From: a virus
Direction: 5' to 3' (one strand)
DNA: 35,331 bases
IMG/VR virus record: IMGVR_UViG_3300020057_000100
Coordinates: 1 to 35,331 of that record
Positions 3,084 through 20,308 of this stretch are shown in pieces. Positions within the stretch are counted from its first letter, which is position 1, and every line of letters begins with the position of its first letter. Below the pieces are notes generated by a model, which searched no databases, was not told the DNA's origin, and was given only the letters and a program-made list of their open reading frames with translations. A program made the translations under genes and the position numbers.

Positions 3084-3420
3084 CTGCAAGGCGAAGGGTC
3101 GACGATTTCAGCAGGAACTGGCGGCGGCGATCGTCAGCGCCTGCGGGCTCACCGCCGATGATGTGACCAGTCGGAGCAGTGGCGCGGCGGGGACGGACTT
3201 GCTGTTGTCCCCGGCCGCGCGGGCGGTCTTCCCCTACGCGGTGGAGGCGAAGAACGTCGAGTCGTTGAATGTGTGGGCCGCGTTTACTCAAGCGGCGGCG
3301 AATGGAACGAAGACCCGCCTGACGCCGCTCCTGTGCATCCGGCGGAACAAGCAGGAACCGTTAGTCATCTTGCGGCTACCGGACTTTCTCGCCCTCGTGG
3401 CGGAACGGGGTGTCCTATGA
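3070..3420 (+). CDS. PD-(D/E)XK nuclease, Holliday-junction-resolvase-like
   Basis: This 116-residue protein starts with GTG at 3070. The fold is suggested by K-x-K-G-R-R-F-Q-Q-E-L near the N-terminus, D43 in GTDLLL, the E59-A-K61 dyad in AVEAKN, and a downstream W-x-x-F-x-Q helix. Together these form the catalytic pattern of PD-(D/E)XK enzymes of the archaeal-resolvase/endonuclease class seen in many phages. The likely role is cutting branched or recombining DNA during replication and packaging. The C-terminus (RNKQEPLVILRLPDFLAL) matches the usual closing strand and helix of such small phage nucleases. The family assignment comes from motif reading only. Its stop overlaps the next start (ATGA). 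Confidence 0.65.
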   Translation: MRPSSCKAKGRRFQQELAAAIVSACGLTADDVTSRSSGAAGTDLLLSPAARAVFPYAVEAKNVESLNVWAAFTQAAANGTKTRLTPLLCIRRNKQEPLVILRLPDFLALVAERGVL

Positions 3421-5242: not shown

Positions 5243-6430
5243 ATGGCGTCAACACGCGCGCATGCGGCGCTCGGGGCGTCCAGCGCGGACCGCTGGATGA
5301 ATTGCCCGGCGTCGAATCGGTTGTCGGAAGGGATTCCGGGCACCGGGGACACGGACTACAGCCGGGAGGGCACCAGCGCGCACAAGGTGCTGGAGATGGC
5401 CCTGACACGCCACCTTGACGCGGGTACGTGGCTCGACGCCACGATCGAGGGCGTACTCGTGACGGAGAACATGACCGAGGCGGTGCAGGTCTGCGTGGAC
5501 TACGTCCGGGACCTGATAGCCACGCATCCCGGCGCGGTCCTGCATGTGGAGCAGCCGATTTCTCTCGCGGCGCTCAACCCGCCCGCGGATATGTTCGGCA
5601 CGGCGGATATCGTGATCTTCGCCCCGGTCGAGCGGACGCTGTTCGTGGTGGACTACAAGCACGGGCAGGGCTACGCGGTCAAGGCGGTGGGCAATCCGCA
5701 ACTGCGGTACTATGGTCTCGGGTCGCTCATCGCGATCGAGAAGACGGTTGGGACCGGGCGGCTGGACACGATCGAGCTGACGATCGTCCAGCCCCGGGCG
5801 GTACACGGCGACGGGATCATCCGGTCGGAGCACTTGTCCTACCGCGATCTGGCGAATTTCGCGGATGACATTCTGGACGCCGCGCATCGGACGCTGGACC
5901 CCAAGGCGCAGCCGAAGACGGGTTCGCATTGCCGGTGGTGCCGGGCGCAGGCGATCTGCCCGGCGCAGAAGTCCCTCGCGGCGGCGACGGCGCAGATGGA
6001 TTTCTCGGAGGAAACGCCCCCACCGGATGTCGAGACCCTGACGATGGATCAGTTGATCGGCATTTACGACAAGGCGACGATCATCAAGGCGTGGCTCAAG
6101 GCCGTGGAAGATAAGTTGTTCGGGGAGCTGAACGCCGGTCGACCCGTGGCGGGGTACAAGCTGGTGGAGAAGCGGGCGATGCGGAAGTGGGTCGAGAATG
6201 AAACACTGGTACGCGCCCGGTTGGAAGAGGAGGGAATCGCTCCGGCTGACTATCTGGAGACCTCCTTGAAGAGCCCGCCACAGGTCGAGAAGTTCGTGGG
6301 CAAGAAGCCCTTCATGGCCTTGGCGGATGTGGTCGAGAAGAAGTCCAGCGGCGTCCTCCTTGCTCCCTTCGCCGATAGCCGCCCGGCCGCGCCAGTGGGA
6401 GCGCAGAACGAATTCAACGCGGATGACTGA
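5243..6430 (+). CDS. DUF2800 family RecB/Cas4-like exonuclease
   Basis: This 395-residue protein begins with the DUF2800 hallmark SSADRWMNCPAS. The PD-(D/E)XK site is visible as D122 in GTADIV, D137-Y-K139 in VVDYKHG, and the helix N-P-Q-L-R-Y-Y (Q153, Y156-Y157). Cysteines C21, C230, C233 and C239 are arranged like the 4Fe-4S cluster ligands of AddB/Cas4-type nucleases. Expected role: processing of DNA ends for recombination-dependent replication, together with the single-strand-binding protein encoded next. No RecT/Erf-type annealase is seen nearby. The ATG directly follows the previous stop. The C-terminal 150 residues, past the cluster, are helical and end in an acidic tail. Confidence 0.85.
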   Translation: MASTRAHAALGASSADRWMNCPASNRLSEGIPGTGDTDYSREGTSAHKVLEMALTRHLDAGTWLDATIEGVLVTENMTEAVQVCVDYVRDLIATHPGAVLHVEQPISLAALNPPADMFGTADIVIFAPVERTLFVVDYKHGQGYAVKAVGNPQLRYYGLGSLIAIEKTVGTGRLDTIELTIVQPRAVHGDGIIRSEHLSYRDLANFADDILDAAHRTLDPKAQPKTGSHCRWCRAQAICPAQKSLAAATAQMDFSEETPPPDVETLTMDQLIGIYDKATIIKAWLKAVEDKLFGELNAGRPVAGYKLVEKRAMRKWVENETLVRARLEEEGIAPADYLETSLKSPPQVEKFVGKKPFMALADVVEKKSSGVLLAPFADSRPAAPVGAQNEFNADD

Positions 6431-6451: not shown

Positions 6452-7060
6452 ATGGCGAGCGAGAAGCTGAAGACCCCGGTGGGCGTTCTGAGTTACCCGC
6501 ATCTGTTCGAGCCGGTGGCGGGGGAAGACGGGGGCAAGAAGAAGTATTCGATGGCGCTGGTGCTGGGGGAAGAGGCGCAGGCGACGGTGCTCTTCAGGGA
6601 GTTGAAGGCCGCGGCCAAGGCGCTCGGTGTCGTCAAGTGGGGCGACAAGTTCGAGGCGATGGTGCTGGCGGATCAGCTCCATTGGCCCTTCAAGAAGGAC
6701 AAGGCGGGGAAGTACCCGTCGGTTCCGAATGCGATCGTCATGAATTTCCGGAGCGATACGCCGCCGGGTCTGGTATCCCGCCGCAAGCAGGTCAGCGGAC
6801 CGGACATCGGCAAGCCGACGATCATCACGGAGGCCATGCAGATCACCGGGCAGGAGGATGAGATGTATCCCGGCTGTCTGGTGCAGGTCGTCGTCTCTCC
6901 GTTCGTCTTCGATAAGGGGATGAAGAAGGGAGTCAGCTTCGGGCTGAACAACGTCCAGAAGACTGGCGAGGGCGCGCGCATCGACGGCAAGCGCGCCGCG
7001 ACGGATGACTTCGAGGCGGACCTGACGGAGGCACCCGTGTCGCTGGACGACCTGCTGTAG
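6452..7060 (+). CDS. DUF2815 single-stranded-DNA-binding protein
   Basis: This 202-residue protein matches DUF2815: TPVGVLSYPHLFEP at the start, a K-K-K-Y-S segment, and a C-terminus with an acidic stretch (DDFEADLTEA, then SLDDLL) like that of single-strand-binding proteins that recruit partners. The family is predicted to adopt an OB fold, comparable to T7 gp2.5. It sits 21 bp after the DUF2800 exonuclease, the usual pairing in phage genomes, and precedes the polymerase. Expected role: coating of single strands during replication and recombination. Confidence 0.8.
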   Translation: MASEKLKTPVGVLSYPHLFEPVAGEDGGKKKYSMALVLGEEAQATVLFRELKAAAKALGVVKWGDKFEAMVLADQLHWPFKKDKAGKYPSVPNAIVMNFRSDTPPGLVSRRKQVSGPDIGKPTIITEAMQITGQEDEMYPGCLVQVVVSPFVFDKGMKKGVSFGLNNVQKTGEGARIDGKRAATDDFEADLTEAPVSLDDLL

Positions 7061-7203: not shown

Positions 7204-9216
7204 ATGACCATATGTTCGTTAGACTTCGAGACTCGTTCCGCGTTCCCTCTCCGCTCCGGTGGTGTCTACCCCTACGCGGAGCACGAGACGACGGATATCC
7301 TCTGCTTCGCGTGGGCGTTCGATGACGAGGCGCCCGCGCTCTGGCAGCCCGGCGATCCGTTCCCCGCCCGCCTCACGGCGCATATCGGGGCGGGCGGGGA
7401 GATGCGGGCGTGGAACGCGCAATTCGAGCGCGTGCTCTGGCGTGTCGGCGTGCGGAAGTATGATTTCCCGCTCTGTCCGGACGCCCTGTGGCAGGACACC
7501 GCGGCGGAAGCGGCGGCGATGGCCCTGCCCCGGGGGCTCGGGGATTGCGCGGTCGTGCTTGGCGTGTCCTCCCAGAAGGACCGGGATGGCCATGCGCTCA
7601 TGATGCGGATGTGCAAGCCGCGCGCCCCCCGGAAAGGGGAGGACCCCGAGGGGATGTATTGGGCGGACTCCCCGGAATTCCGCGCCCGGCTCGGGGTCTA
7701 CTGCCAAACTGACGTGGTGACCGAACGCACGATCTACCACGCGGTCCGCCGGTTGGACCGGCACGAGCATCGGGTCTTCCGGCTGGATCAGGTGATTAAC
7801 GATCGGGGTATTCGGGTAGACCGGCCCCTGATCGTGGCCGCGCAAACGATCGCGGACCAAGGACTGCGACTCGCCGCGAAGACCCTGTACCGCTTGACGG
7901 GGGGCCGGGTGGAAGGACCGACGAAAGTCGCCGCGATGAAGGAGTGGCTGGCCCGGCAGGGGCTGACGGTCGAGAGTCTCGCGAAGAAGCCGCTGGCGGA
8001 TTTACTGGAGACGGAGCTATCGGATTCCGTGCGCGCGGTCCTGGAAACCCGGGCGGAGACGGCTAAGTCCAGTGTCGCGAAACTCAAGTCCATGCTGGCC
8101 TGCGCGGGCGCGGACGACCGGATGCGCGGACTACTGCTCTACTGCGGCGCGGGCACCGGCCGGTGGTCCGGCCGTCTGGCGCAACCGCATAACTATCCCC
8201 GTCCGACCCTCGACGCGGAACTGTTTATCGACGACGTGCTGCGCGGGGACTACGACGCGCTGGACGTGCTTCATTCCCCGCTGGAAGTCATCAGTTCGAT
8301 GCTGCGCTCCTGTCTGGTGGCGTCGCCCGGTCACCGATTCATCGCGGCGGACTACGCCGGCGTCGAAGCCCGGATCACGAATTGGTTGAGCGGGCAGTGG
8401 GACATCGTGCGGAAGTTCGCCCGGAATGAAGACGTGTACATGTACAACGCGCTGCGGATGGCGGAGATGCAGGGGACGCCACTCCCGGCGGGGGCGGACA
8501 AGAAGACGCACAATTTCGAGCGTCAGGGCGGGAAGGCGGTCGAGCTGGGGGCGGGGTTTCAGATGGGTCCACCCAAGTTCCAGACCACGGCGGACACGAT
8601 GTTCGGCCTGAAGATATCGCTGGAGCAGGCGAAGGAATTCATCAAGTTCTATCGCACCTCGCACCCCGCGGTCGTACAGATGTGGCGCGACATGAATGAC
8701 GCCGCGAAGTCCGCCGTGCGTGAGCCCGGGACCACGCAGTGGGTCGGGGCCGGCGCCAAGATCGCCTTCACGCATCGCGGCGGCTACCTGTGGATGATTC
8801 TGCCGTCGAAACGCCCGCTCTGCTACACCCGGCCCCGGCTGGAGATGCGGGAAGCGCCGTGGAGCACGGAGGAGCGCCCGCAATACGTCGAGTCGGTCGT
8901 CGCATGGGGCGTCGAGAGCACGACGCGCCGGTGGCAGGAATTTCACCTGTACGGCGGGCTGTTGCTGGAGAACGCCGTGCAAGCCGTCGCGCGGGACCTG
9001 ATGGCGGACGGCATGTTGCGGGTGGAAGCCGCCGGGTATCCGGTCGTGCTGACGGTGCATGACGAAGTGCTCGCGGATGTCCCGGAGGGCGTCGGGTCGG
9101 TCGCGGACTTTGAGCGTCTGCTGGTGGAGCTGCCGGCGTGGGCGCGTGGGGAGGAGTCCGGCGTCCCCTGCCCTATTGCGGCGGAGGGTTGGGAGGGACT
9201 ACGTTACCGGAAATGA
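7204..9216 (+). CDS. Family A DNA polymerase with 3'-5' exonuclease
   Basis: This 670-residue replicative polymerase combines a proofreading exonuclease with a Pol I core. Exo I is D7-F-E9 (SLDFETRS), Exo II is AWNAQFE, and Exo III is YCQTDVV. In the polymerase, motif A is D383-Y-A-G-V-E-A-R, motif B is R440-x3-K444-x3-L448-x3-F452, and motif C is H619-D620-E621. The position equivalent to E. coli Phe762 is Leu448, and the Tyr766 equivalent is Phe452. There is no 5'-3' exonuclease domain. The ATG lies two bases after the tRNA, so the leader is very short and has no clear ribosome-binding site outside the tRNA itself. The following ORF begins at or near the stop (ATGA). Confidence 0.95.
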   Translation: MTICSLDFETRSAFPLRSGGVYPYAEHETTDILCFAWAFDDEAPALWQPGDPFPARLTAHIGAGGEMRAWNAQFERVLWRVGVRKYDFPLCPDALWQDTAAEAAAMALPRGLGDCAVVLGVSSQKDRDGHALMMRMCKPRAPRKGEDPEGMYWADSPEFRARLGVYCQTDVVTERTIYHAVRRLDRHEHRVFRLDQVINDRGIRVDRPLIVAAQTIADQGLRLAAKTLYRLTGGRVEGPTKVAAMKEWLARQGLTVESLAKKPLADLLETELSDSVRAVLETRAETAKSSVAKLKSMLACAGADDRMRGLLLYCGAGTGRWSGRLAQPHNYPRPTLDAELFIDDVLRGDYDALDVLHSPLEVISSMLRSCLVASPGHRFIAADYAGVEARITNWLSGQWDIVRKFARNEDVYMYNALRMAEMQGTPLPAGADKKTHNFERQGGKAVELGAGFQMGPPKFQTTADTMFGLKISLEQAKEFIKFYRTSHPAVVQMWRDMNDAAKSAVREPGTTQWVGAGAKIAFTHRGGYLWMILPSKRPLCYTRPRLEMREAPWSTEERPQYVESVVAWGVESTTRRWQEFHLYGGLLLENAVQAVARDLMADGMLRVEAAGYPVVLTVHDEVLADVPEGVGSVADFERLLVELPAWARGEESGVPCPIAAEGWEGLRYRK

Positions 9217-9239
9217 CCGCTCTCAGGAAAGGACGTATC

Positions 9240-9419
9240 ATGGCGAAATCCCGCGGGTTCCCGCTCAAGGCGGCGCTGGCGCAGAAAGCCTTTGAGACCT
9301 GTTGGGCCTCGCTCTCGGATCGCCGCAAGGCGTTGATCCGGGAGAAGGCGGACGAATGGAACTACACCCTGAAGAATGTGCTGGACCGCTGGCCCGCGTA
9401 CCGCGTGGAGGTCAGATGA
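9240..9419 (+). CDS. Small basic hypothetical protein
   Basis: This 59-residue protein starts MAKSRGFPLKAALAQKAF. The ATG at 9240 was chosen because AAAGGA lies about seven bases upstream; an in-frame ATG at 9213 overlaps the polymerase stop (ATGA) and would add nine residues. The protein is mostly helical and rich in lysine and arginine (LSDRRKALIREKADEW). It may bind nucleic acid or the polymerase, but nothing shows this directly. Confidence 0.55.
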   Translation: MAKSRGFPLKAALAQKAFETCWASLSDRRKALIREKADEWNYTLKNVLDRWPAYRVEVR

Positions 9420-9613
9420 GATGGTTGCGGAAGGTCATCGCGCTCTTCTTCGTCCTCGTCATCATCATGCCATGCGAGCTGCTCGCGTTCCTCGTGGATT
9501 GGTCCACGCACTACGAACTGAGCAATATCATGGATCGTCTGGACCTGTGGATGCGGGTTCCCCGCTGGCCGGGGGATAAGGACGACGATCAGTTCCCGCC
9601 GCGCTTCTCATGA
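9416..9613 (+). CDS. Small single-pass membrane protein
   Basis: This 65-residue protein starts with a basic MRWLRK followed by a clear transmembrane helix (about residues 8-28: VIALFFVLVIIMPCELLAFLV). A short polar, acidic tail ends in GDKDDDQFPPRFS. Both ends overlap neighbours by ATGA. The function is unknown. A small membrane protein between polymerase and primase could tether replication or modify the host envelope, but this is speculation. Confidence 0.6.
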   Translation: MRWLRKVIALFFVLVIIMPCELLAFLVDWSTHYELSNIMDRLDLWMRVPRWPGDKDDDQFPPRFS

Positions 9614-12015
9614 CTCCGGCGGAACAGCTCTACACCCTCGGCTATACGCCGTTGGTGTCCGTCATCCCCCCGAGCGCCGCGCTGTCCCCCGGCTCGACGA
9701 TCACCACGAGTCAACTCGGGAAGACCCCCGGTCGCAAGCTCGCGAACGGGACGTGGGCGGGCTATGGCTGGCTCAAGCACGAGACCACGCTGAATGATGT
9801 GAAGCAATGGGCGCAGGATGGCGCGAATCTCGGACTCCTCGCGGCGACATTCCCCGCCGTGGATATCGACTGCATGGATGTGGCGCTCGCCCGGGAGATC
9901 GGACTGCTCGCGCAGCGTATCCTCGGCCCCGCGCCCGTGCGAACCGGGCAGGCGCCGAAGAGCCTGTTGGCCTACCGGCTCACGGGGGACCCCTTCGCCC
10001 GAATGGCGTTGCTGGTATACCCGGAGGGGAAATCGCCGGACCCGAATGTCCGGGCGCCCTGCCACCTGATTGAGGTGCTCGGCGCGGGCCGGCAGTACCT
10101 GATCCATGGCACGCATCCCAGCGGGTCCCCCTATGTCTGGGACCGCCCCCTGCCGCCGGCGGACGAATTGACGGCGCTATCGAAGGAACAGGTCGAGCAT
10201 TTCTTCACCGAAGTCGCCGACCTGCTGGAGCTGTTGCCGGGATGCGTGGTCGAGCGCATCGGGGACGGCGCGCTTCGAGCCGCGCGGACGGGGCCGCAGG
10301 CCGGGCTGGTGGCGCCGTCACTGGAGGCGTTGACGGAGGCGGTGCGTCTGATTCCGAACGACGGGGAGGTCGTCCGGGAGCAGTACATCAAGATCGGCTA
10401 CGCTATCCGCGCCGCGTGGCCGGAGGATGAGGAGGACGCCTATACCATCTTCGCCCGGTGGGCCGGGTCGCATACCGGGAGCGAACGGGTAACGGGGAAT
10501 CCGGAGACGTGGCGGGCGGACTTCCGACGCATGCGACCCCCCTATAGCGTCGGCTATGGCTGGCTGGCGGAGATCGCCCGGCGGTGGGGATATAGCGACG
10601 CTCAATTGGACTTTGAGGCGCTGGACGAGGCGCGGGAGGCCAAGGCGGAGGAGGAAAGCGGGTCCGCGCGACTCTCCGATCAGTGGTGCGCCCATCGGGT
10701 GATCGCGGAGCAGGGGTCCCTCCTGCGCTTTGTGGCGGCGGAAGAGCGGTGGTATGTTTGGAGCGGGGGCCGGTGGGTCCCGGACGCGGTCAACCTCGCG
10801 CAGCACATGGTGGACGGAACGCTCGGTCGGCTCTCCGCGTGGATGGCCCGGCAGGGGTCAACACCGGCGGAGCAGAAGGAGGCGCTGACACAGGCGCGGC
10901 GGCTGGCCTCGGCCTATGCCCGGGACTCCGTCCTGAAGATCGTACAAGCCGATCCCCGAGTGGTGATCCGGCCGGAAGCGTTCGACGCCGACCCGTGGGC
11001 TCTGAATACCCCGGCCGGGGTACTGGACCTGACGACCGGGATGATGCACGCCCACACCGCGGACACGCTCTGCTCGAAGATGACACGCATCGCGCCGGAT
11101 GACACGATGGCCTGTCCGGAGTGGTTGCGCTTCCTCGACGAGGCTACGCTGCATGATGTCGACCTGATGACCTACCTGCAACGCCTCTCCGGGTACTGTC
11201 TTACGGGGGTGGTGACAGAGCAGGTTTTCGCGATGATCTGGGGACCGGGGGGTAACGGCAAGAGCGTTTTCCTGAATACCCTCGCGCATATCCTCGGCAC
11301 CTACGCCCGAACGTCCCCGATGGACACCTTCACCGCCTCGGGGAACGATCGGCACCCAACGGAACTCGCGATGCTGATGGGCGCGCGTATGGTGAGCGCC
11401 AACGAAACACAGGCCGGTCGGCGGTGGGATGAAGCCCGGGTTAAGGGTCTGACGGGCGGGGACGCGGTGACCGCGCGCTTCATGCGTCAGGATTTTTTCA
11501 CGTTCCTGCCAACCTTCAAGCTGATATTCGTCGGGAATCACAAGCCGGAATTGCAGGTCGTCGATCGCGCGATGCAGCGCAGGATTCACGTCGTGCCGTT
11601 CGTGGTGACCCCCCTACGTGTCGATCCGGAGCTATCGGCCAAGCTGCGCGGGGAAGCCCCGGCCATACTGGCGTGGGCGGTGCGGGGTTGCTTGCGGTGG
11701 CAGCGGGAGGGACTGGCCGCGCCGGCGGTAGTGACGGCGGCGACACAGGATTACTTTACCGAACAGGATGCCATCGGGCGCTGGCTGGAGGAGTCCACCC
11801 GGGAAGCCCCGAATCATTTCCATACTAGTGAAGAGCTGTTCGAGAGTTGGCGGGAATGGGCGGGACGGAATGGGGAGTACACCGGAAAGATGCGGGCCTT
11901 CGTGCAGCGTGTCGCCGCCAGGAAAATCCCCCGGTCCAAGGACGCGAAGACGCGGCGGCACGGCTTTGAGGGACTCTCGATTATGAACCTTCATCACTTC
12001 GAGACGGAGAACTAA
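9610..12015 (+). CDS. Primase-polymerase / D5-type SF3 helicase fusion
   Basis: In this 801-residue fusion, the N-terminal third is a bifunctional primase/polymerase (PrimPol) domain with D85-I-D87 in AVDIDC as metal ligands and LIEVLGAGRQYLIHGTHPSG as the following signature. The middle (about 225-330) resembles the helical C-terminal part of primase proteins. From about residue 360 onward is a D5-N-like region (ADPWALNTPAGVLDLTTG, about 455-475) and an SF3 ATPase with Walker A G545-P-G-G-N-G-K551-S. The expected role is priming and unwinding at the replication fork, alongside the Pol A enzyme. The ATG overlaps the preceding stop. Confidence 0.9.
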   Translation: MTPAEQLYTLGYTPLVSVIPPSAALSPGSTITTSQLGKTPGRKLANGTWAGYGWLKHETTLNDVKQWAQDGANLGLLAATFPAVDIDCMDVALAREIGLLAQRILGPAPVRTGQAPKSLLAYRLTGDPFARMALLVYPEGKSPDPNVRAPCHLIEVLGAGRQYLIHGTHPSGSPYVWDRPLPPADELTALSKEQVEHFFTEVADLLELLPGCVVERIGDGALRAARTGPQAGLVAPSLEALTEAVRLIPNDGEVVREQYIKIGYAIRAAWPEDEEDAYTIFARWAGSHTGSERVTGNPETWRADFRRMRPPYSVGYGWLAEIARRWGYSDAQLDFEALDEAREAKAEEESGSARLSDQWCAHRVIAEQGSLLRFVAAEERWYVWSGGRWVPDAVNLAQHMVDGTLGRLSAWMARQGSTPAEQKEALTQARRLASAYARDSVLKIVQADPRVVIRPEAFDADPWALNTPAGVLDLTTGMMHAHTADTLCSKMTRIAPDDTMACPEWLRFLDEATLHDVDLMTYLQRLSGYCLTGVVTEQVFAMIWGPGGNGKSVFLNTLAHILGTYARTSPMDTFTASGNDRHPTELAMLMGARMVSANETQAGRRWDEARVKGLTGGDAVTARFMRQDFFTFLPTFKLIFVGNHKPELQVVDRAMQRRIHVVPFVVTPLRVDPELSAKLRGEAPAILAWAVRGCLRWQREGLAAPAVVTAATQDYFTEQDAIGRWLEESTREAPNHFHTSEELFESWREWAGRNGEYTGKMRAFVQRVAARKIPRSKDAKTRRHGFEGLSIMNLHHFETEN

Positions 12016-12016
12016 C

Positions 12017-12424
12017 GTGACACTCTCCCCGGTTCTTCCCACGGGAGCGCGGGAACGAAAGGACACCCCACTCGTGAGCGGGGTCCTCGATTACTTCCCC
12101 GCCGCGCTGGCGGAAATCGCCCGCGTCTCCAAGGCGGGCAGTGACCAGCACAACCCCGGTCAGCCGCTGCATTGGTCGCGGGGCAAGTCGATGGACCACG
12201 CGGACTGTCTGCTCCGGCATCTGGTGGAACGGGGGACGCTCGACGGCGATGGTCTGCGACATACCGCGAAGGTCGCATGGCGGGCGCTGGCGCTGCTGCA
12301 GATGGAACTGGAAACCGCCGGGGCGTCCGTCGCTCGTGGAGCGTCGGTGCCACAGGTTGATGTGACAACGCCACGGGATACGCCGGGAATTCCGGCGCAA
12401 TTACACCTCTCCGCCGTGTGGTGA
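12017..12424 (+). CDS. DUF5664 / MazZ-like dATP/dGTP diphosphohydrolase
   Basis: This 135-residue protein starts with GTG one base after the helicase stop. Residues 25-100 carry the DUF5664 signature: YFPAALAEIARVSKAG, then Q44-H-N-P-G-Q-P-L-H-W-S-R-G-K-S, D60-H, R67-H and the C-terminal H-T-A-x-x-A-W-R-A-L. Members of this MazG-related family include MazZ, which removes pyrophosphate from dATP and dGTP in phages that replace adenine with 2-aminoadenine. The family also occurs in phages without that modification. No PurZ gene is visible here. The last 35 residues are Val/Thr/Pro-rich and look disordered. Confidence 0.8.
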   Translation: MTLSPVLPTGARERKDTPLVSGVLDYFPAALAEIARVSKAGSDQHNPGQPLHWSRGKSMDHADCLLRHLVERGTLDGDGLRHTAKVAWRALALLQMELETAGASVARGASVPQVDVTTPRDTPGIPAQLHLSAVW

Positions 12425-12428
12425 CAGG

Positions 12429-12445
12429 TGGTACGCGCCTTGCAT
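12429..12445 (+). promoter_or_regulatory. Sigma-54-type promoter candidate
   Basis: TGGTACG-N4-TTGCAT matches the -24/-12 consensus TGGYACG-N4-TTGCW, with GG and GC exactly 12 bp apart. It lies in the short gap after the MazZ-like stop, predicts a start of transcription near 12455, and is followed by AGGGAG and the GTG of the zinc-ribbon gene. No enhancer site was identified. Confidence 0.5.
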
Positions 12446-12479
12446 TCGGATTGGGGGGATACCCCCACAGGGAGAACAT

Positions 12480-12731
12480 GTGACCAGAGCGGATGAGATG
12501 AAGCCGACCCGTCGTTTGGTCGTGGATGGGTTCGGCGCGGAAAGGACGGAGGCGGTGAGTCGTATCGCGCTGGACCCAGAGGAGGAAGAAGTGCACGAGC
12601 TGGATTTCGGGGAGGACCGGGTGAGTCTGATCTGTCCGGAATGCGATCGGCTGCTGGTGGGCTATCGGTCAGATGTGCGTCCTCGGTGCCCGCAGTGCGG
12701 CCGATCTTCAAAGCAATTGGGGCTCATATGA
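12480..12731 (+). CDS. Zinc-ribbon protein (GTG start)
   Basis: This 83-residue protein starts with GTG, with GGGAG at the right distance; the ATG two bases earlier is out of frame and closes at once. The N-terminal half is acidic (DPEEEEVHELDFGED). The C-terminal part carries two CPxC pairs (CPEC, then CPQC) about 18 residues apart, forming a zinc ribbon of the rubredoxin/TFIIS type. Such small phage proteins often touch RNA polymerase or DNA. It is the first gene after the sigma-54-like promoter, and its stop overlaps the next ATG. Confidence 0.6.
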   Translation: MTRADEMKPTRRLVVDGFGAERTEAVSRIALDPEEEEVHELDFGEDRVSLICPECDRLLVGYRSDVRPRCPQCGRSSKQLGLI

Positions 12732-13117
12732 GCGAGCGCTCTCTGTTGGACACCTGCTGGCGCGTCTACGCGATCACGTTGACGCTCCTCGGAACGGCGA
12801 TGTGGGCGACACGGGAGGACCCGCGAGCCCCGCCGGCGGAAACGCTGAACGCCGCTCACCTGCGGCTGCGTCAGTGCGCGACCGGGTTCCTTGGTGCCCG
12901 ACTGCGGCGCCTCGACCGTATCGTCTGGCGGGCGCTCCCGGATTCCGCCATCGCGATCCGGGCGCGGGTGGCGCTTCCGGATACGATCTATCTACATCCG
13001 GCATGGCGGGCGGACGAGTGGACCGTCGCGCATGAGATGCTGCATATCGCGATCGGTCGGCCCGGGCACCCCGACGTTCCGTTCCTTGTCTGTGGCCTCA
13101 TGCGGCCGGAGCGCTAA
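12728..13117 (+). CDS. Membrane-anchored HExxH metallopeptidase-like protein
   Basis: This 129-residue protein has an N-terminal transmembrane helix (about residues 10-27: CWRVYAITLTLLGTAMW). A soluble domain follows, carrying H102-E103-x-x-H106 (VAHEMLHIAIG) and H114 in GRPGHPDVPF as a possible third zinc ligand. This is the zincin active-site layout, compact enough to be a SprT-like or related minimal peptidase. Topology predicts the domain on one face of the inner membrane; the orientation is not clear from charge. Possible roles are cleavage of host envelope proteins or of phage proteins. The ATG overlaps the zinc-ribbon stop. Confidence 0.6.
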   Translation: MSERSLLDTCWRVYAITLTLLGTAMWATREDPRAPPAETLNAAHLRLRQCATGFLGARLRRLDRIVWRALPDSAIAIRARVALPDTIYLHPAWRADEWTVAHEMLHIAIGRPGHPDVPFLVCGLMRPER

Positions 13118-13393
13118 ATGCCCTACCGGGAGAGTCGTCGACTGGTGGGCGTGCAAGCGAAAGCCCACGCGCAGGGGATGCGGGTTGAGAAGATCGTGCT
13201 GATGCCGAACCGGGTCACGCGCTACGCGATCTTCCGGGAGGGCTCGCTGGCGCACGCGCTCTCCGCGGTGTTTTGGAACCGGCTAGTGGACCTCGACGCG
13301 GCCTTGACTCCCGTCCTTGGCCGCGACGATACCCCCGATCCCCAGCGCGGGGATTCCGTACTTCAGGAGTTTCTTCCGGGCTTCGACGTTTAG
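13118..13393 (+). CDS. Hypothetical protein, last gene of the plus block
   Basis: This 91-residue ORF starts immediately after the metallopeptidase stop. The first 65 residues look like a real small alpha/beta protein (VQAKAHAQGMRVEKIVLM, RYAIFREGS, then a helix LAHALSAVFWNRLVDLDAAL). The remaining tail lies antisense to the end of the large minus-strand ejection-type gene, an overlap of 111 bp. The tail (TPDPQRGDSVLQEFLPGFDV) is low in structure. The function is not recognised. Confidence 0.5.
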   Translation: MPYRESRRLVGVQAKAHAQGMRVEKIVLMPNRVTRYAIFREGSLAHALSAVFWNRLVDLDAALTPVLGRDDTPDPQRGDSVLQEFLPGFDV

Positions 13394-16300
13394 CTCAACC
13401 CCGGCGAACCCTCCGCCGCCGTCCTCGACGAGGGGGATATTCAGCCAGCGGAAAATACGCTTGACGGCTTTCGGAACTTCCTGATCGTAGGTGATGGTCG
13501 CCGCCGCGAAGGGCAGGCCAGCCTCCCGCCCCCGATTCTTCCCGCTCACCCACTGGAAGGTGTTCACGCCCTCATCCGCCGCCTGCATCAGCGACGCTCC
13601 CACGGAAAGCTGTACCCACCGGTTATCGTCAACCAACGCGCTCATCGACGGGTCGTCAGCGGCCGCGGAGCCGGCGCGGTGGCGCGCCTGCCCGAGATCG
13701 CTTTGCGCTTCGATCATCAGATAGGTCTCCCCTTGGTCATGCAGCTCTCCCCGGGCGTGGGCCACGGAGCCTCGGTCGCTAAAGTGCGATCCCGACCTCC
13801 CGAGGTTCGTATGGGTTATGATGATTTCCCGGTACGGAGCGTCGTCCTCGACGCGCTGATGGCCCTCATATTCCGTGTCATTGCGGGTCGCGCCGCCGCC
13901 GCCGCCGCCAGTGTCTTCTTCCAATCTCACACGCGCTTCGTCCATAAAGTCATCGGCCACCATCTCCTCCTTCAGGATCAGGTCCGTCGCGCGGGATTGA
14001 TACTCTTCCGCGCGCCGCATCTCCCGTACGATGTCGGTCTTTTCCCTCTCCGTGAGGATGCTCCGTATCGACCGGTTACCCTCCGTCTGTAGAGGAAGTT
14101 GCTGGGGGTCGTCGAACGCGCCCCCCTCATGGAGGACGCGCGTCAGGAGGTCCTCGATAGCGGGCCACCGGTCTTCCTCGCGGAATGTCGTCAACTCGTC
14201 ACGAGTATACGCCTTCCGCAGGTCTTTCGGAAACGCCTCCTCCCACGGGAAGGAGTCCGCGGCTCCCCGCCCTAACGCGGAATCAATAACCGTTCGTACG
14301 CGGTTGAGATTCCCCTCCCGGAGGCCCACATTATCCGTTATCTGCCACTCGGTCTCCTCATTCGCGGTTGACGCGAGGTACTCCGCTTCGCGTCCAACGC
14401 TCTTCTCCGTCACCGGCTGGCCCGCGTGGGTCTGGACTTGGCGGTGTAACTCCGCCGCGGGGTAGTGTTCCTCGAAAATCAGATCGGCCTCTCGCGCGGT
14501 ATACTTCTTCAGCGCGGTCCGGGGGGTTCCCTTGACGAGGTCCGCGAGGTCTCCGTTGTACTCTGGAACCGTGTCGTATAGCGCGCGCAGTTCGGCCTGG
14601 GGAACGTCCGGGTGCTTGCTCAACTGGTCCATCCAGTCTGGCAACGTGAAGGACTTCCCCATCCACTTATTCTCGAAGAGGAGCACGTCGGAGACGCGCG
14701 AGCGAAAGCCACCCCGGAAGGGCTCTTCGACATTGCCCGGCTTCTTGGTTTCCTGAAGCGCCTTGACGCTCGTGACGGCGTCCCCCGCGACGGTGGGTTG
14801 TGGCGCGGGATTCTTCGGGATGATCCGGAAGGTCCCGTCCGCCAGCCGCTGCATCTGCGCCGGGCTCGTTGTCGTCTTCATGAACGCGATGGCCTCTTCG
14901 CGAGTCAGTCCCTCGGCGAGTGACGCGGCCTTGCCGGGCACGCGATCGGGGAACAACGATCCCCGGGTATCCCCGAGTACCTTGCCGAGGGTTTCCCCGA
15001 TCTTCGACAGCGTCGACGACCCGCCCCGTACCGGCGTCTTGTCGAGCAGGACGGCGGATTGCTTGAACTTCGAGCCCTTCAGTTCCGGCTGGGTATACCC
15101 CGTGTAACCCGCCTTCCGCAACGCCCGGCGGAAGGTCGCGTCATCCGCGCCCCGGCCCACCGTATTCGCGGCGATGCCTTCCGCGTCCGCGGTGACATCG
15201 TAGAGCGCCGCCCGCACGGTGGAGGTGTATCGATGCTTGCCTGCGAAGGCGTCCTCAATCCGGCCGGGGGTATCCTCAAGGAAAACGTGGACACCTTTGA
15301 TGCCGCGCGCTCGCTCACGACCGGGGACCGGACCGGTGCCACTCTTCGCCGGATCGAGGACCGAGAGATCGTCCCGGGGGGAGTAGTGCGAAACCTCGAT
15401 GGTCCGCATCTTCGGCGCGTTGGGGAGCCGGACCGCGCCGGACTCACTGCGGAGGCTCGGGCCGGGCGCGGGGGGTGACACCGGGATATCGCCTTGGTAG
15501 ACGCCGTCGACGATATGGCCGATGGCCTGTTCCCCTCGCGCGTGCCCGAGCGCGTTCGCCCTCTTTGGATGGGTGACGTGATCCGAGATATTGATTTCGG
15601 TCGCGCCTGTTTTCGGGTCCGTCCACTTCCCCATCAGCCGGCCGTCGTGTATCGCGGACTGGACATCCGGCCGGCGCAGGTACGCGGAGATTTCTTCCGG
15701 GGACGTGAGCGGGACCGGCGTCGTCAAGGCGGGGTCCGCCACAAAGTAGCCGGTGCCTTTGAACGGTTCACCGGTCGGATGTAGCGTCGCCCCTTCCGGC
15801 TGCTGTAGCGCGGAGACCAGACGCTCATGGTGGAGTTCTTTGACAGCGTCGGTGTAGCGATCCCGAGCGACCTGGTGCATCTCCGGAGAGACGATGTCTT
15901 CTCCCGCCGGGTCGGATATCCGCTCGTCCTCGATGCGCGCCAGTCCCCGGTAGGCGTTATCCACCTCCCGCTCGACCGGGTTCATCTCCTCCCGCAGTTT
16001 CTGGATGGGATGCACCGGCAGGGGCCGATGCGCCAGCGGTCCAATCGCCCGTGCGGGTTCCGCCTGCGCGGCGCGGTCCAGCGCCTTCGCGAAGGCGTCA
16101 TGATAGGGCGTCCGGCCGATCGCGACGGCGCCCCCACGCACGCCCGGAGCCAACCACGCGGTTACACCCTCGATCCCCTTAACCGCCATCGGCCCCAAGA
16201 GGTTACCCGCGATCTCAAACGGCAGGGACTTTTCGTCATATCCCGCGGCCGTTCGCAACCGCGTGTTTAGCGCGTCAGTCAGGGGGAAGGGGTCTCCTAG

Positions 16301-16603
16301 TACGTCGTGTTTCGTTCCTCCGGTGCTGTTCTCCAGCCCCAATGAGGCGAACCGCAGAGCATCCAGCACCAGCGGGGGGATATCCAATAAATTCTGCGCC
16401 ATTCCCGTCGCGAAAGCCGCGCCGGTCTGCCCCAGCGTCGGCGGAGCGACCCCGGGGCCGAACCCGGCCGCTCGCTCCGGCGGGGTGAACGGTTCGGGAC
16501 CCGGAGGGAGATTCAGCGCGTCCCGAAAGGCCCGGATCAGATCATCCGGCGTCCATGCGGGGGGACCCGCGAATCCGTGGCGGGGAGGGCGGGGGCCGGT
16601 CAT
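13283..16603 (-). CDS. Large internal virion / polyvalent-type protein with ART-like segment
   Basis: This 1106-residue protein is the last gene of the structural block. The N-terminus is Pro/Gly-rich, and a hydrophobic helical region follows (about 60-170). Around residues 395-540 lies a segment with H-Y-S (EVSHYSPRDDLSVLDP) and GTGPVPGRERARG, typical of ADP-ribosyltransferase-like domains in phage polyvalent proteins. Near the C-terminus (about 935-1070), SHFSDRG, AHARGELHDQGETYLMIEAQSDLGQARH and the later FQWVSGK resemble another polyvalent-associated domain with the conserved E-x-Q-S-D. Such proteins are packaged and injected to act on the host. The gene starts inside an ATGA overlap with the preceding ejection-type gene. 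The function is inferred from motifs only. Confidence 0.65.
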   Translation of the reverse strand: MTGPRPPRHGFAGPPAWTPDDLIRAFRDALNLPPGPEPFTPPERAAGFGPGVAPPTLGQTGAAFATGMAQNLLDIPPLVLDALRFASLGLENSTGGTKHDVLGDPFPLTDALNTRLRTAAGYDEKSLPFEIAGNLLGPMAVKGIEGVTAWLAPGVRGGAVAIGRTPYHDAFAKALDRAAQAEPARAIGPLAHRPLPVHPIQKLREEMNPVEREVDNAYRGLARIEDERISDPAGEDIVSPEMHQVARDRYTDAVKELHHERLVSALQQPEGATLHPTGEPFKGTGYFVADPALTTPVPLTSPEEISAYLRRPDVQSAIHDGRLMGKWTDPKTGATEINISDHVTHPKRANALGHARGEQAIGHIVDGVYQGDIPVSPPAPGPSLRSESGAVRLPNAPKMRTIEVSHYSPRDDLSVLDPAKSGTGPVPGRERARGIKGVHVFLEDTPGRIEDAFAGKHRYTSTVRAALYDVTADAEGIAANTVGRGADDATFRRALRKAGYTGYTQPELKGSKFKQSAVLLDKTPVRGGSSTLSKIGETLGKVLGDTRGSLFPDRVPGKAASLAEGLTREEAIAFMKTTTSPAQMQRLADGTFRIIPKNPAPQPTVAGDAVTSVKALQETKKPGNVEEPFRGGFRSRVSDVLLFENKWMGKSFTLPDWMDQLSKHPDVPQAELRALYDTVPEYNGDLADLVKGTPRTALKKYTAREADLIFEEHYPAAELHRQVQTHAGQPVTEKSVGREAEYLASTANEETEWQITDNVGLREGNLNRVRTVIDSALGRGAADSFPWEEAFPKDLRKAYTRDELTTFREEDRWPAIEDLLTRVLHEGGAFDDPQQLPLQTEGNRSIRSILTEREKTDIVREMRRAEEYQSRATDLILKEEMVADDFMDEARVRLEEDTGGGGGGATRNDTEYEGHQRVEDDAPYREIIITHTNLGRSGSHFSDRGSVAHARGELHDQGETYLMIEAQSDLGQARHRAGSAAADDPSMSALVDDNRWVQLSVGASLMQAADEGVNTFQWVSGKNRGREAGLPFAAATITYDQEVPKAVKRIFRWLNIPLVEDGGGGFAGVELNVEARKKLLKYGIPALGIGGIVAAKDGSQGRVEVH
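13338..13354. other. Hairpin in the convergent gene overlap
   Basis: ATCCCC and GGGGAT form a 6-bp stem around a 5-nt loop within the antisense overlap of the last plus-strand and last minus-strand genes. It lies where a bidirectional terminator would be expected, but no T-tract follows on either strand, so the role is uncertain. Confidence 0.25.
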
Positions 16604-18576
16604 CGCGGCGCGCGCTGGAGACGGTGGACCTGTTCCCCCGCGCCCGTGCCGAGCAACCGCACACCGGTCGTGCGCGTCACATCCCTCTGGAGCAGGGACC
16701 GTCGCGTCGCCTCAATCTCCGCGAGCACGGCTCGCATCTCCGGCGATCCGGACCGGGCCAGCAGACGCGGTCCCATTTCCGTCGCGATCCGCTCATCCCG
16801 CCCGGCGGTCGCGAGGTTCTTAAAGAACGCCGCGAGACTCGTCGGCATATCGTCACCGTGCCCGAACATTTCCTTCGCCACCGCGGACCGGTTCGCCGTC
16901 TTCGACCCCGCGAGGGACTCGAAGCTCCGGCGGAACATCTGCTCCACGTCCGCCCCGGCGAGGAATTTATCCATCTCCGCCGTCGAGCCGAATAGCGCCC
17001 GGAGGTGTGGCTCAATGGTATCCTTGCCACGCCGCAGACTCTGCCGAAACGCATTCGCTTCCGGGGAGAGAGCCTGCAGTTTGGCGACATAATCGTCCAA
17101 CGCGGCCATGCGGTAGGCGCTTCGGGAGTTCGGCGAGAGCTTCGCGAGGGCCGATGTGATATCACGGGGGTCTTGACGCATCGCCGTGGCGCCCTGCTCG
17201 AACGCCTTCACCATCTCCATCGTGCGCGCGTAACCCCGGTTGACGGCCTTGAAGCCGGGCATCGCCTGCTCCATACCATTCTCCAGCGCCCGCGCGGCGG
17301 TCACCTGCTTGACCGCGAGGTCCTGTCCTCCGGCCGTGGCGAAGTTCGCGGACGCTTTCGACTTCAACTTCTGGAGCACCGCCTGCATGGTCCGGAAGGA
17401 GGTCGACTGTCCCTCGTGGTACGCCATCGACTGATAGACCCCACTGGTGATGGGGTCCGTCAGCGCCTCAAACATCGGCGCGGTCTGGTCGTTCATCGTC
17501 AGCACGTCGTAACTTTTCTCCAGCGGCCGGTAGAGCCGCTCCGCGATCGGGCGCGTTTCCGTCTTGAGAAACGCCTGCGCTTCCTTGACATCGACGAACC
17601 GACTCGCGTCGGGAGCGTTCCGCGGCGCGCCCACCGCGGCGTCCGTCAAGTCCGACGCGAGTCGGGTATCCGCGCCGGCGTTACGGTTCATCAGGAGGTC
17701 CGACGTGCGCTGCCGAACGGCGGGGTTGAAGTTCCCCGCGACATCCAGCGCGGCGGGATTCAGGTCCCCAAGAATCGCCTGTCCCGGACGCACGGCGTTC
17801 GCCGCGGTCATCCGCGCGCCAGCATCCGCCGGGATAACCCGCGACATAGCACCCTGCGCCGACGCCAGCGCGTCCGCCTCCGGGGCGAGAATACGCCGCG
17901 CGCCCCGCCCGAGACCCCCGAGGACGTCCCCCGCGGGCTTTGAGAGCGCGCCCAACACACCACCGGCCGCTCCCCCGACCACGCCGCCGAGCGCGATTTC
18001 CCGAGGTACGTCGGACAGTTCCCCCGCGTTGCCCGCGCCGCTGACCGCGCCCGCGCCCGCCCCATACAATGCGCCGGTTTTGGCGAGCGATCCGATCGTG
18101 GCGGGACCGCCAGCCCCCAGCGTCCCCAACGCCAGCGGAAGTCCCCCGATGATTTCGGAGAGCGCGGCGAGTCCGCCGTGCGCGCTCCGGAAAGCGTTGT
18201 CCGCCCCCCGTTCCGCGTCTCTGGTCGTACGATATCGTTCGCCCGGCGTGGAGCCGTCCCCCGACGCGGGCCGCAGTCGACCACTCCGTCCAGCCCCCGG
18301 GTTCCCTCCCCCGACGGCCGCGTCGACCAGCCCGGACAGTTCATCATTGAACCCGAACGACAGACCCTTGCTCGTCGAGCGGGCGATGCCCTCCCCCACA
18401 CCGGGCTGGATATCCCGCTGGTGGAGTTTCCGCCGCAGCTCCGCCACATCGGGGACCGCGCCCTTGGAGCGTGTCCGCACGAACTCATCGGCCTGCTCCG
18501 GGCTGACGTCATCACCCCGGGCGTGCGACCGGGCATACGCCCGGATAAGGTCCTGCCACAGCTTCTCGTAATCCAT
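16600..18576 (-). CDS. Internal virion / DNA-ejection protein with glycine-rich hydrophobic segments
   Basis: This 658-residue protein has a helical N-terminus (MDYEKLWQDLIRAYARSHARG), then a Gly/Ala-rich hydrophobic central region (about residues 135-215) with repeated GG and GAGAG motifs. Such segments are typical of podovirus ejection proteins that insert into the host membrane. The C-terminal 400 residues are mainly helical with coiled-coil character (AMRQDPRDITSALAKLSP, EMDKFLAGADVEQMFRRSFESLAG). Its start shares one base with the preceding stop (TGATG), and its stop overlaps the next start (ATGA). Likely role: part of the channel or transfer complex released from the capsid. This is inferred from composition and from its place after the tail genes. 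Confidence 0.6.
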   Translation of the reverse strand: MDYEKLWQDLIRAYARSHARGDDVSPEQADEFVRTRSKGAVPDVAELRRKLHQRDIQPGVGEGIARSTSKGLSFGFNDELSGLVDAAVGGGNPGAGRSGRLRPASGDGSTPGERYRTTRDAERGADNAFRSAHGGLAALSEIIGGLPLALGTLGAGGPATIGSLAKTGALYGAGAGAVSGAGNAGELSDVPREIALGGVVGGAAGGVLGALSKPAGDVLGGLGRGARRILAPEADALASAQGAMSRVIPADAGARMTAANAVRPGQAILGDLNPAALDVAGNFNPAVRQRTSDLLMNRNAGADTRLASDLTDAAVGAPRNAPDASRFVDVKEAQAFLKTETRPIAERLYRPLEKSYDVLTMNDQTAPMFEALTDPITSGVYQSMAYHEGQSTSFRTMQAVLQKLKSKASANFATAGGQDLAVKQVTAARALENGMEQAMPGFKAVNRGYARTMEMVKAFEQGATAMRQDPRDITSALAKLSPNSRSAYRMAALDDYVAKLQALSPEANAFRQSLRRGKDTIEPHLRALFGSTAEMDKFLAGADVEQMFRRSFESLAGSKTANRSAVAKEMFGHGDDMPTSLAAFFKNLATAGRDERIATEMGPRLLARSGSPEMRAVLAEIEATRRSLLQRDVTRTTGVRLLGTGAGEQVHRLQRAPR

Positions 18577-19742
18577 CAGGGTCTCAACAATGGGTTTTCC
18601 TCGCCCGTGCCGGGTACATAGCCCGGCGATTCGTCAAACAGTTCTCCCGGATTCGGGAGACCCCGGCGCTTGGCCCGGTTGAGGTACTCCGTGCGTACCA
18701 CTCCCCACCGTTTGTTGAACCACTTGGCGTTCCTTTCCAGCACATCCGCGATTTCCCGCACCAGTCCCTCCGGGATTTTCGGGGAAACGCCACCCGTCGC
18801 GGCGTCGACATATCCCTTCGCCCGATCCTGCAGGTTCGCCAACTCCCGGGCGAGCGTCACTTCCCCTTCCCGGGCCACCGACCCCGGATCGATCGCCTTG
18901 ACGAAGGCCACGATCATCTGATTCCGGGCGACGCCACCTCCCCGGAGCGCGACATCCTTCAGCGCCAAGGCGCGGTTGATCGTCTCCGAGGTATCCCGGA
19001 TGTCCTTGATGCGACGATTCCAGTCGTCCGTGATCTGGTTTTCCTGCGTGGCGAGGTACGTGCGTTCCGCCCGATCCCCAAGCGCCTGCTGGTAGTCCGT
19101 CGGACCTTTCGGCTTGTCCCCGAGCGGCTGACGCCAGACCTCCTTGCCCGTCGTCTTGTCCGTGGCGATGAGTTGCGTTCCGTCCGCGGACTCGTGCGTG
19201 ACGATCTGCGCGGGGTTCGCCCCATCCCGTCCCTGCTGATTGACGGCGTTCGACAGATACCCCGCCAGTGCGTCCGCTTCCTTGGTGAATCCCCCGGTCA
19301 ACAGCTCACTCAGGAGCGAAGTCATCGACTGCAGGTCCGACCGACCGGCGTACTTCTGCTGGAGCGTCCCCAGCCGCGCGCCCCGCTCCCGCTGCTGTAT
19401 AACGGAGTCGAGTCCGAGACCCTGCTGCGTCTGCCCGGAGAAGCTCTCCCGCCCCGCGCGCACTCCGCCCGCCAGTAGCTGCAGGAGTCCCTGCCGGAAG
19501 GGCTGGGGGCCACTGTGCTGCAGGATATTCAGGCCAGCGTCTAAGAGCGCGCGGTTCCCGTAGCCCCGCGCCCGGGCCGGGTCCAGCAGTCCGCCTTCCA
19601 GCGGATCGCCCGAACTGAAGAGCCGCGCGGCGAAGCCGGGGGAGATCGGTCGGTCCTCCCCTGGATGCGTGATTTCCCACGGCACCTTCGGCCGCGGAAG
19701 GATACCGTCCCCGGGATTCCCGAAGCCGAAGGGAGTGGTCAT
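18576..19742 (-). CDS. Internal virion / DNA-ejection protein
   Basis: This 388-residue protein starts MTTPFGFGNPGDGILP. The start at 19742 was chosen because it overlaps the previous stop (ATGA) and has GAAGGG upstream; the longer reading frame upstream is antisense noise inside the neighbouring gene. The middle holds helices (GLLQLLAGGVRAGRE, LQSMTSLLSELLTGG). The C-terminal region (AFVKAIDPGSVAREGEV, ADVLERNAKWFNKRWG) resembles internal virion proteins of podoviruses, in which a DPGSVVREGE-like motif is common. Likely role: a minor head protein injected with the DNA. Confidence 0.6.
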   Translation of the reverse strand: MTTPFGFGNPGDGILPRPKVPWEITHPGEDRPISPGFAARLFSSGDPLEGGLLDPARARGYGNRALLDAGLNILQHSGPQPFRQGLLQLLAGGVRAGRESFSGQTQQGLGLDSVIQQRERGARLGTLQQKYAGRSDLQSMTSLLSELLTGGFTKEADALAGYLSNAVNQQGRDGANPAQIVTHESADGTQLIATDKTTGKEVWRQPLGDKPKGPTDYQQALGDRAERTYLATQENQITDDWNRRIKDIRDTSETINRALALKDVALRGGGVARNQMIVAFVKAIDPGSVAREGEVTLARELANLQDRAKGYVDAATGGVSPKIPEGLVREIADVLERNAKWFNKRWGVVRTEYLNRAKRRGLPNPGELFDESPGYVPGTGEENPLLRP

Positions 19743-20308
19743 CCGCCCTTCTTGCCCCCGGGGAACACGCTGCCGTAGAGACCCGCCGCCGCGGTCGCAC
19801 CGCCCAGTATGTCGCCAAAGGGGTTCCTCGGTAGCTGCTGCGTCTGCGTCCGCGTCTGACCCCCGACCTGCGCGGCGTTGCCGTAGAGCCCCATGAGCTG
19901 TAGGGCGCGCGTCCACTGATCCTGTTGCGTCCCGATATCATACTGGTTGAGTGTCTGGCCCTGCTGACGGTTCACGTCGGCGATCCCCTGCGCCTTGAAG
20001 AGCGCCGAGCGATCCCCGCCGAACGCGCCGGATTTCGTGGCGTAGTCATCCGCCTGCTGCCCGGACGACTGCCGGAGCCGATCGAAGTCGCTCACGATGT
20101 TCGCCCGCCCGGCCGCGTAGTCCGGCGTGCCAAGGTTCGGGCCGAGTTTATCCCCCAGACCCCCTAGCGTGGTACGCCAAAGGTCGATCCATTTCTGGGT
20201 GTTTGCGTCCGGAGCGATGGTCTCTGTGGAGCGGCTGGAACCACCACCGCCGAAAAGCCCACCGAGCGCGCCACCAATGCCGGCGGCGGCGAGGATAGGA
20301 AAGGGCAT
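19739..20308 (-). CDS. Small internal virion / DNA-transfer protein
   Basis: This 189-residue protein starts with a hydrophobic Gly/Ala stretch (MPFPILAAAGIGGALGGLFGGGG). A helical, Gln-rich middle follows (FDRLRQSSGQQADDYATKSG, about 75-135), and the end is a second Gly-rich hydrophobic stretch and a basic tail (GGKKGG). The ribosome-binding site AAGGAG lies seven bases before the ATG. The two hydrophobic ends fit a small ejection protein able to enter a membrane. It is the first of three consecutive ejection-type genes. Confidence 0.6.
   Translation of the reverse strand: MPFPILAAAGIGGALGGLFGGGGSSRSTETIAPDANTQKWIDLWRTTLGGLGDKLGPNLGTPDYAAGRANIVSDFDRLRQSSGQQADDYATKSGAFGGDRSALFKAQGIADVNRQQGQTLNQYDIGTQQDQWTRALQLMGLYGNAAQVGGQTRTQTQQLPRNPFGDILGGATAAAGLYGSVFPGGKKGG

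Follow-up and report, generated by a model that had tools for sequence, protein, structure and literature searches.

The open reading frame at positions 12017–12424 probably encodes a dNTP pyrophosphohydrolase of the DUF5664 family, which would edit the dNTP pool from a replication operon in a phage with ordinary DNA. The window analyzed here is the entire IMG/VR record (G000) and is 35,331 bases in length. The initial annotation had considered that the phage might carry modified-purine (2-aminoadenine, or Z) DNA; sequence comparisons do not support that reading.

The DUF5664 open reading frame and its family

The following features of the window are referred to in the text.

1731–2330, + strand: HD phosphohydrolase of the phage 5′-dNMP phosphatase type (phrog_318), about 10 kb from the DUF5664 gene
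3414–4025, + strand: dCMP/cytidine deaminase domain protein, start provisional
5243–6430, + strand: DUF2800 / PD-(D/E)XK exonuclease
6452–7060, + strand: Enc34/Gp2.5-like ssDNA-binding protein
7204–9216, + strand: family A DNA polymerase (PolA) of the canonical phage type, not DpoZ (Pfam and PHROG profiles, DpoZ model, tree)
9610–12015, + strand: D5-type primase-helicase (PriCT_2, D5_N, DUF5906), directly upstream of the DUF5664 gene
12006–12009, + strand: GGAG, resembling a ribosome-binding site, 7 bases 5′ of the GTG start (read from the sequence)
12017–12424, + strand: DUF5664 (PF18909) protein of 135 aa, phrog_27780 clade (open reading frame, Pfam and PHROG profiles)

The open reading frame starts with GTG and has 135 codons. 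The stop codon of the upstream primase-helicase is at position 12015, and since only one base separates the two genes they are probably expressed together.

The translated sequence matches PF18909 at 47.1 bits (cut-off 27, E-value = 2.5e-12), which confirms the DUF5664 protein originally annotated at this position. PF18909, whose current name is “dATP/dGTP diphosphohydrolase, N-terminal”, is the sole Pfam match at E ≤ 0.1, and the match to phrog_27780 is 165.5 bits. Relatives are encoded in 195 of 205 pattern-matched stretches of IMG/VR. The best 80 of these 195 relatives make up the homologue set and show 55–77% identity to the window protein. The alignment, termed A1, was drawn from 80 homologue rows, i.e. 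79 IMG/VR loci and Sphaerotilus phage R1, with L079 excluded on account of an open reading frame broken in frame. Sixty-three rows were left after a 90% identity filter and R1 was then removed; A1 has 63 rows, the window protein and 62 homologues. It displays 22 invariant columns (window included), and PF18909 is the only Pfam family matched at E ≤ 0.001 in all 63 rows. The PF18909 score, the IMG/VR relatives and the invariant columns together establish that this is a real gene and not a chance open reading frame.

Profile-profile comparison of the 63-row A1 with 60 canonical DUF5664 rows gives a probability of 91.6% (E-value = 8e-7). The window protein has matches in 34 phage records (E ≤ 0.01). 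The DUF5664 protein of Arthrobacter phage Wayne matches 793 (E ≤ 0.001; 644 at less than 60% identity and 149 at 60% or more) and the DUF5664 domain of Acinetobacter phage SH-Ab 15497 matches 692 (E ≤ 0.001), both counts being of sequence matches only. At the nucleotide level, no relatives of window positions 8000–20000 are present among phage records. Searches by sequence against solved structures with the window protein, the 63-row profile and the 60-row canonical profile gave nothing meaningful.

The PHROG label “endolysin; inhibits RNA polymerase” was considered for the window protein and dropped, as the match to phrog_5033 is weak (21 bits). Other DUF5664 proteins also draw this label, and those in OZ196078, PP885686 and NC_021311 are annotated “endolysin” or “endolysin; inhibits RNA polymerase”. 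This annotation has apparently spread from PHROGs.

The record and its gene order

The record displays no end repeat of 10–299 bases and no match to Terminase_6N, the one terminase family searched for, and therefore probably represents part of a phage genome, in which the portal, major capsid and scaffold genes are at the right. The gene order exonuclease, ssDNA-binding protein, PolA, D5 primase and DUF5664 is also found in L004 and L014. An open reading frame on the minus strand at 13283–16603 encodes a protein of 1106 aa with no PHROG match; in L014 a 52%-identical relative of it occupies the corresponding flank of DUF5664.

A beta-solenoid protein of the YdcK type (PF18836), whose N-terminal part is long and repetitive, is encoded at the left end of the record (positions 27–1001). 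Positions 1008–1491 contain a 22-base unit, in tandem as well as spaced copies, that includes the inverted repeat TGTGTGTC-GAAAT-GACACACA. These units sit inside three partly overlapping copies of a 159-base direct repeat (88%–99% identity to the first). The array directly precedes the early genes and is a possible replication origin or operator array.

Relation to the assayed Wayne enzyme and to MazZ

The DUF5664 protein of phage Wayne (ALY10775.1; DUF5664-1 of PMC12884076) is, like the window protein, a stand-alone PF18909 domain encoded by a phage. It is an assayed pyrophosphohydrolase that converts dATP, dGTP and dUTP to dNMPs, with a kcat for dATP tenfold that for dGTP (PMC12884076). The two proteins have the G, W, RH, D and H positions in common. 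However the identity is 28% and they lie in separate clades; in addition the Wayne gene adjoins PurZ, and its product displays a GE...DPEMG..H motif and a C-terminal DDR that differ from the window protein.

The SH-Ab 15497 protein (DUF5664-2) has an N-terminal PF18909 domain, as does the window protein, and is 26% identical to it over this domain. Unlike the window protein, it is fused to a DUF550 domain that follows behind, and the gene is located beside purZ and a datZ-like gene.

The DUF5664 proteins of Z phages form two clades, one of which adjoins proteins of canonical-genome Arthrobacter phages, according to PMC12884076. A tree of 37 DUF5664 rows recovers the same two Z groups. The 19 phrog_27780 rows (16 of the 62 A1 homologues, R1, phiL7 and the window protein) are split from both with support of 99/98 and a branch length of 1.66 changes per column; the tree carries a long-branch warning for Phaux and K373. 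The window protein thus belongs to neither the DUF5664-1 nor the DUF5664-2 clade.

MazZ of cyanophage S-2L (7ody) shares with the window protein a proposed type of reaction, the cleavage of dNTP into dNMP and PPi. It differs in family: it is a PF04447 (DUF550) protein with no PF18909 match, and hhalign shows no link to the DUF5664 alignments (0.4% probability against the 63-row A1 and 2.4% against the 60-row DUF5664 alignment). In structure it shows a weak resemblance, limited to the canonical DUF5664 model (VIA Z 4.1, 55 aligned residues, 3.7 Å). The original assignment of the window protein to “the family containing MazZ” is thus inexact as regards S-2L MazZ. What remains of it is the DUF5664-DUF550 fusion in SH-Ab 15497 and the pyrophosphohydrolase activity of the Wayne protein (PMC12884076).

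NDT-like domains beside or fused to DUF5664

An NDT-like domain (DUF4406/DUF1937) is detected by HMM in 23 of the 80 homologue loci, with flanks of up to 10 kb and many shorter. It was not found in the other 57 within the DNA available, which for many loci is truncated by the end of the contig, and there is none in the window. Eleven of the 23 were scanned with Pfam and all match DUF4406 or DUF1937; the neighbour of DUF5664 in L024, L025, L038 and L176 is DUF1937. L022, L023, L026 and L028 appear to be near-copies of one another, as do L024 and L027.

In all 23 loci the NDT-like domain is on the same strand as DUF5664 and no more than 460 bases away, measured from edge to edge. The two are fused in one stop-free frame in eight loci, four in each order: the NDT-like domain is N-terminal in L009, L010, L031 and L032, and DUF5664 is N-terminal in L044, L056, L060 and L061. 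The motif SxG[AVIC]xxE is retained in 23/23 domains, and its Glu is presumably the NDT nucleophile. A 31-row profile of the NDT-like domains matches the solved structures 7m5h (3.1e-4), 6evs (3.8e-4) and 4jen (0.003); these matches are nucleoside deoxyribosyltransferases and a CMP N-glycosidase. The top match of the profile is an uncharacterised protein, 1t1j (1.2e-10). By these profile matches the DUF4406/DUF1937 domain of the relatives is a predicted member of the NDT superfamily. A six-row profile of DUF4406 found no NDT structure and no link to DmtZ of phage Ghobes.

Closeness to DUF5664 is not peculiar to the NDT-like domain. By edge gap, the NDT-like domain is within 500 bases of DUF5664 in 23/23 loci, the D5 primase in 7/8 and PolA in 0/24; within 1,000 bases the counts are 13/24 for PolA, 0/5 for the ssDNA-binding protein and 0/8 for the exonuclease. 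A RecA-like gene, named by eye, is near DUF5664 in 15 of the 80 loci, e.g. L006, and is within 500 bases in 11 of these. In this comparison NDT-like and HD genes were detected by HMM and the control genes by tblastn. Uniform placement would put 3.9 of the 23 NDT-like domains within 1 kb, measured between midpoints. Since nearness to DUF5664 is common among replication genes, the argument rests on the fusions.

The association extends to canonical DUF5664 genes. An NDT-like domain is present in 10 of 80 canonical loci, for which 2 kb flanks only were taken; eight are within 1 kb by midpoint and none are fused. The Mycobacterium phages Milly and Phaux have an NDT-like neighbour of DUF5664 as well. 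When an L009-type fusion, i.e. the NDT-first order only, was used as a query, none of 657 matching phage records covered 80% of it; the widest cover among the matches listed is 71%, at 33% identity, in Arthrobacter phage BaileyBlu. No report of DUF5664-DUF4406 fusions and no mention of “PF14359” were found in the literature searched, which took in a minority of subscription papers and no bioRxiv preprints. Papers that pair “DUF4406” with “phage” concern other matters, as far as their titles and the beginnings of their abstracts indicate.

An HD gene is present in four of the 80 homologue loci. The last position of the HD frame in L059 is 9851, and a GTG at 9848 could be the start of DUF5664, which would give a 4-base overlap; an ATG some 130 bases inside the frame is an alternative start. 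The HD match of L045 is about 500 bases upstream of DUF5664. Mutual exclusion of HD and NDT-like genes was considered and is not demonstrated: no locus of the 80 has both, where about 1.2 would be expected by chance. In five phrog_27780 loci, including L020, a small MazG-like gene (identified by eye) is located at most 194 bases from DUF5664, and is perhaps a further pool enzyme in this neighbourhood.

Conserved residues and structural models

The conserved core of the window protein extends over approximately residues 6–109 and includes RH67-68, D76-x-D78-G79 and H82. In A1, window included, RH67-68 and D76 are found in 63/63 rows and H82 in 62/63, with D or E at position 78 in 55/63. Canonical DUF5664 members conserve the R, H, D, E and H of RH...GE..D.E.G..H. 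The 80 canonical loci were selected with the pattern G[AE][KQT]KYxxxNW, and invariance of these letters is by construction. The matching R, H, D, [DE] and H are common to A1 and the canonical proteins, whereas the E of GE is absent in the A1 clade. The same position is variable in PHL163, MiniBagel, Phaux and RIO-1, all of them canonical, and in Z phage PMBT28. The canonical K-Y-N is replaced by Q/K-H-other in the phrog_27780 clade, and a few A1-clade members retain the canonical DPET...H form. The clade has its own invariant set, K57-S58-x-D60, E97 and E99, with D63 in 62/63 rows. In the more distant homologues from phiL7 and SIO1 the D76/D78/H82 loop is missing. Given the loss of the GE glutamate, the change at K-Y-N and the missing loop in phiL7 and SIO1, the catalytic residues of the window clade may differ from those of the canonical enzyme.

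The AlphaFold model of the window protein (pLDDT 86.8) gave no PDB match at E ≤ 0.001 or Z ≥ 5 with Foldseek and VIA, and no MazG-fold entry was listed. The model of a canonical DUF5664 protein (pLDDT 93.8) has 2p06 as its best match (Z 7.8, 78 residues, 3.5 Å). This entry (AF0060) is grouped with the all-alpha NTP pyrophosphatases. MazG and HisE entries match the canonical model at Z 3.3–3.8. The fold matches of these models appear too weak to assign the all-alpha NTP pyrophosphatase (MazG/HisE) fold.

These differences would suit a phrog_27780 clade that has lost its dNTPase activity and supplies a structural or regulatory protein of the replication module, e.g. a partner of the primase or polymerase. 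The GE glutamate is gone, the loop is shortened in the most distant members, the branch to the assayed enzyme is long, the clade has a distinct invariant set, and the gene is located beside primase, polymerase or RecA-like genes. However the R, H and D are invariant and the H nearly so, in common with relatives of the active enzyme, and eight loci fuse DUF5664 to an NDT-like nucleotide-enzyme domain in two different orders. Loss of activity is considered unlikely.

Proposed function

The pool-editing reading is based on homology to the assayed Wayne enzyme. By analogy with Wayne, the window gene would encode a small helical enzyme that converts dNTP to dNMP and PPi, probably with a preference for purines, and the dNTP pool would be edited in this manner during replication. 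The fusions and adjacent genes suggest that a second enzyme probably takes over the dNMP product. In the window phage an HD-type phosphatase may convert the dNMP to the nucleoside; in some relatives the NDT-like domain, fused or next door, would convert it to the base and deoxyribose 5-phosphate. For the window phage, the activity of the enzyme, its preferred substrate and any coupling to the HD protein are predictions.

Fusion or adjacency to an NDT-like domain suggests that the relatives, in phages where no PurZ is detected, may degrade dNTPs by way of dNMPs to the base. A comparable two-step logic is seen in DmtZ-DutZ of phage Wayne, which is a pyrophosphohydrolase fused to an NDT-superfamily enzyme acting on dNMPs and which converts dATP mainly to adenine, according to PMC12884076. 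In DmtZ-DutZ, however, the hydrolase is a dUTPase homologue, and Wayne has PurZ0, whereas the phages with DUF5664-NDT proteins have no detectable PurZ.

The purine pool editing proposed in the initial annotation is thus plausible, in view of the Wayne assay (PMC12884076) and of the NDT-like fusions and neighbours in relatives; for the window protein itself the activity is a predicted one.

The substrate could also be of another kind. A house-cleaning enzyme would hydrolyze dUTP or damaged and non-canonical dNTPs and not the normal purine pool. The Wayne DUF5664 protein accepts dUTP too (PMC12884076), the window encodes a dCMP deaminase, and 5-hydroxymethyl-dUMP is a substrate of DNPH1, an NDT-type dNMP N-hydrolase (PMC10483697). 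On balance this seems rather improbable, and pool editing with a probable purine preference is the reading adopted here.

PurZ, the DNA polymerase and the HD protein

The HD-type protein and the family A polymerase that the initial annotation reported in the window are both present, and PurZ is missing from it, as also first stated. A PF00709 (PurZ/PurA) search of the record, which is probably a fragment, was negative. It was also negative in all 80 homologue contigs (44/44 of 37–115 kb and 36/36 of 4–96 kb, many of them fragmentary) and in Sphaerotilus phage R1, which has a homologue of the window gene. The same search was positive in 5/5 Z-phage controls, i.e. S-2L, phiVC8, Wayne, SH-Ab 15497 and Ghobes. 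The absence of PurZ across the homologue contigs is strong evidence but not absolute, since many contigs are fragmentary. In the Z phages fetched, PurZ adjoins the pool enzymes or stands within a few genes of them. No PF04447 (DUF550) match was found in the record, by a search that gave no signal in any control genome either.

The window polymerase scores 16.5 bits on the NCBIfam DpoZ model, against a cut-off of 500. In a PolA tree of 27 rows, from which the polymerase fragments L090 and L091 were excluded, it lies in a 13-row clade (100/100) without any DpoZ, and the nearest row is L101, a contig without PurZ. The DpoZ proteins of phiVC8 and SH-Ab form one pair and those of Wayne and Ghobes another; the latter pair is placed beside the 13-row clade with weak support (69/65). 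The window polymerase is thus outside both DpoZ groups.

The HD protein has phrog_318, a phage 5′-dNMP phosphatase, as its best PHROG match (76.8 bits), compared with 19.5 bits for phrog_7076 (DatZ), on which DatZ of S-2L and SH-Ab score 79 and 224 bits. On the Pfam YfbR-like family it scores 20.8 bits, which is under the cut-off of 25.9. It has an HD-box segment in common with DatZ (6zpa, E-value = 3e-4), and Atu1052 (2gz4) is closer (2e-9). By these profile scores the window HD protein does not appear to be of the DatZ type, and the dNMP phosphatase assignment fits better than a DatZ-like one.

The initial annotation held that a complete genome without PurZ, together with a polymerase outside the DpoZ clade, would refute its reading; the polymerase is indeed outside, while the record is probably not complete. 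That the window gene belongs to a 2-aminoadenine pathway as a MazZ-like enzyme, and that PurZ is in a missing part of the genome, is extremely improbable: DUF5664 does occur in Z phages (fused to DUF550 in SH-Ab 15497, stand-alone in Wayne), HD and PolA genes share the window with it and the record is probably incomplete, but PurZ is found in 0/80 homologue contigs, 44 of them of 37–115 kb, and is near the pool enzymes in the Z phages fetched, PolA is outside DpoZ, the HD protein is unlike DatZ, and the window DUF5664 is outside both Z clades.

Significance

The Z-DNA lead for the window phage is not supported. As no PurZ was detected in 80/80 homologue contigs, many of them fragmentary, and DUF5664 relatives are present in hundreds of phage records, a DUF5664 match, even with an HD protein and PolA nearby, is not diagnostic of 2-aminoadenine.

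A broader possibility, put forward tentatively, is that DUF5664 together with either an NDT-like N-glycosidase or an HD dNMP phosphatase constitutes a widespread module for dismantling purine dNTPs in phages with ordinary DNA. This would be an older kit, which Z phages later recruited on acquiring PurZ, and the window phage would have the version with a stand-alone DUF5664 and an HD protein. If the reading based on the fusions is true, a two-step conversion of dNTP to free base operates in many phages. It might serve pool balance or house-cleaning, starve the host or a rival, or help the phage to evade nucleotide-based defence.
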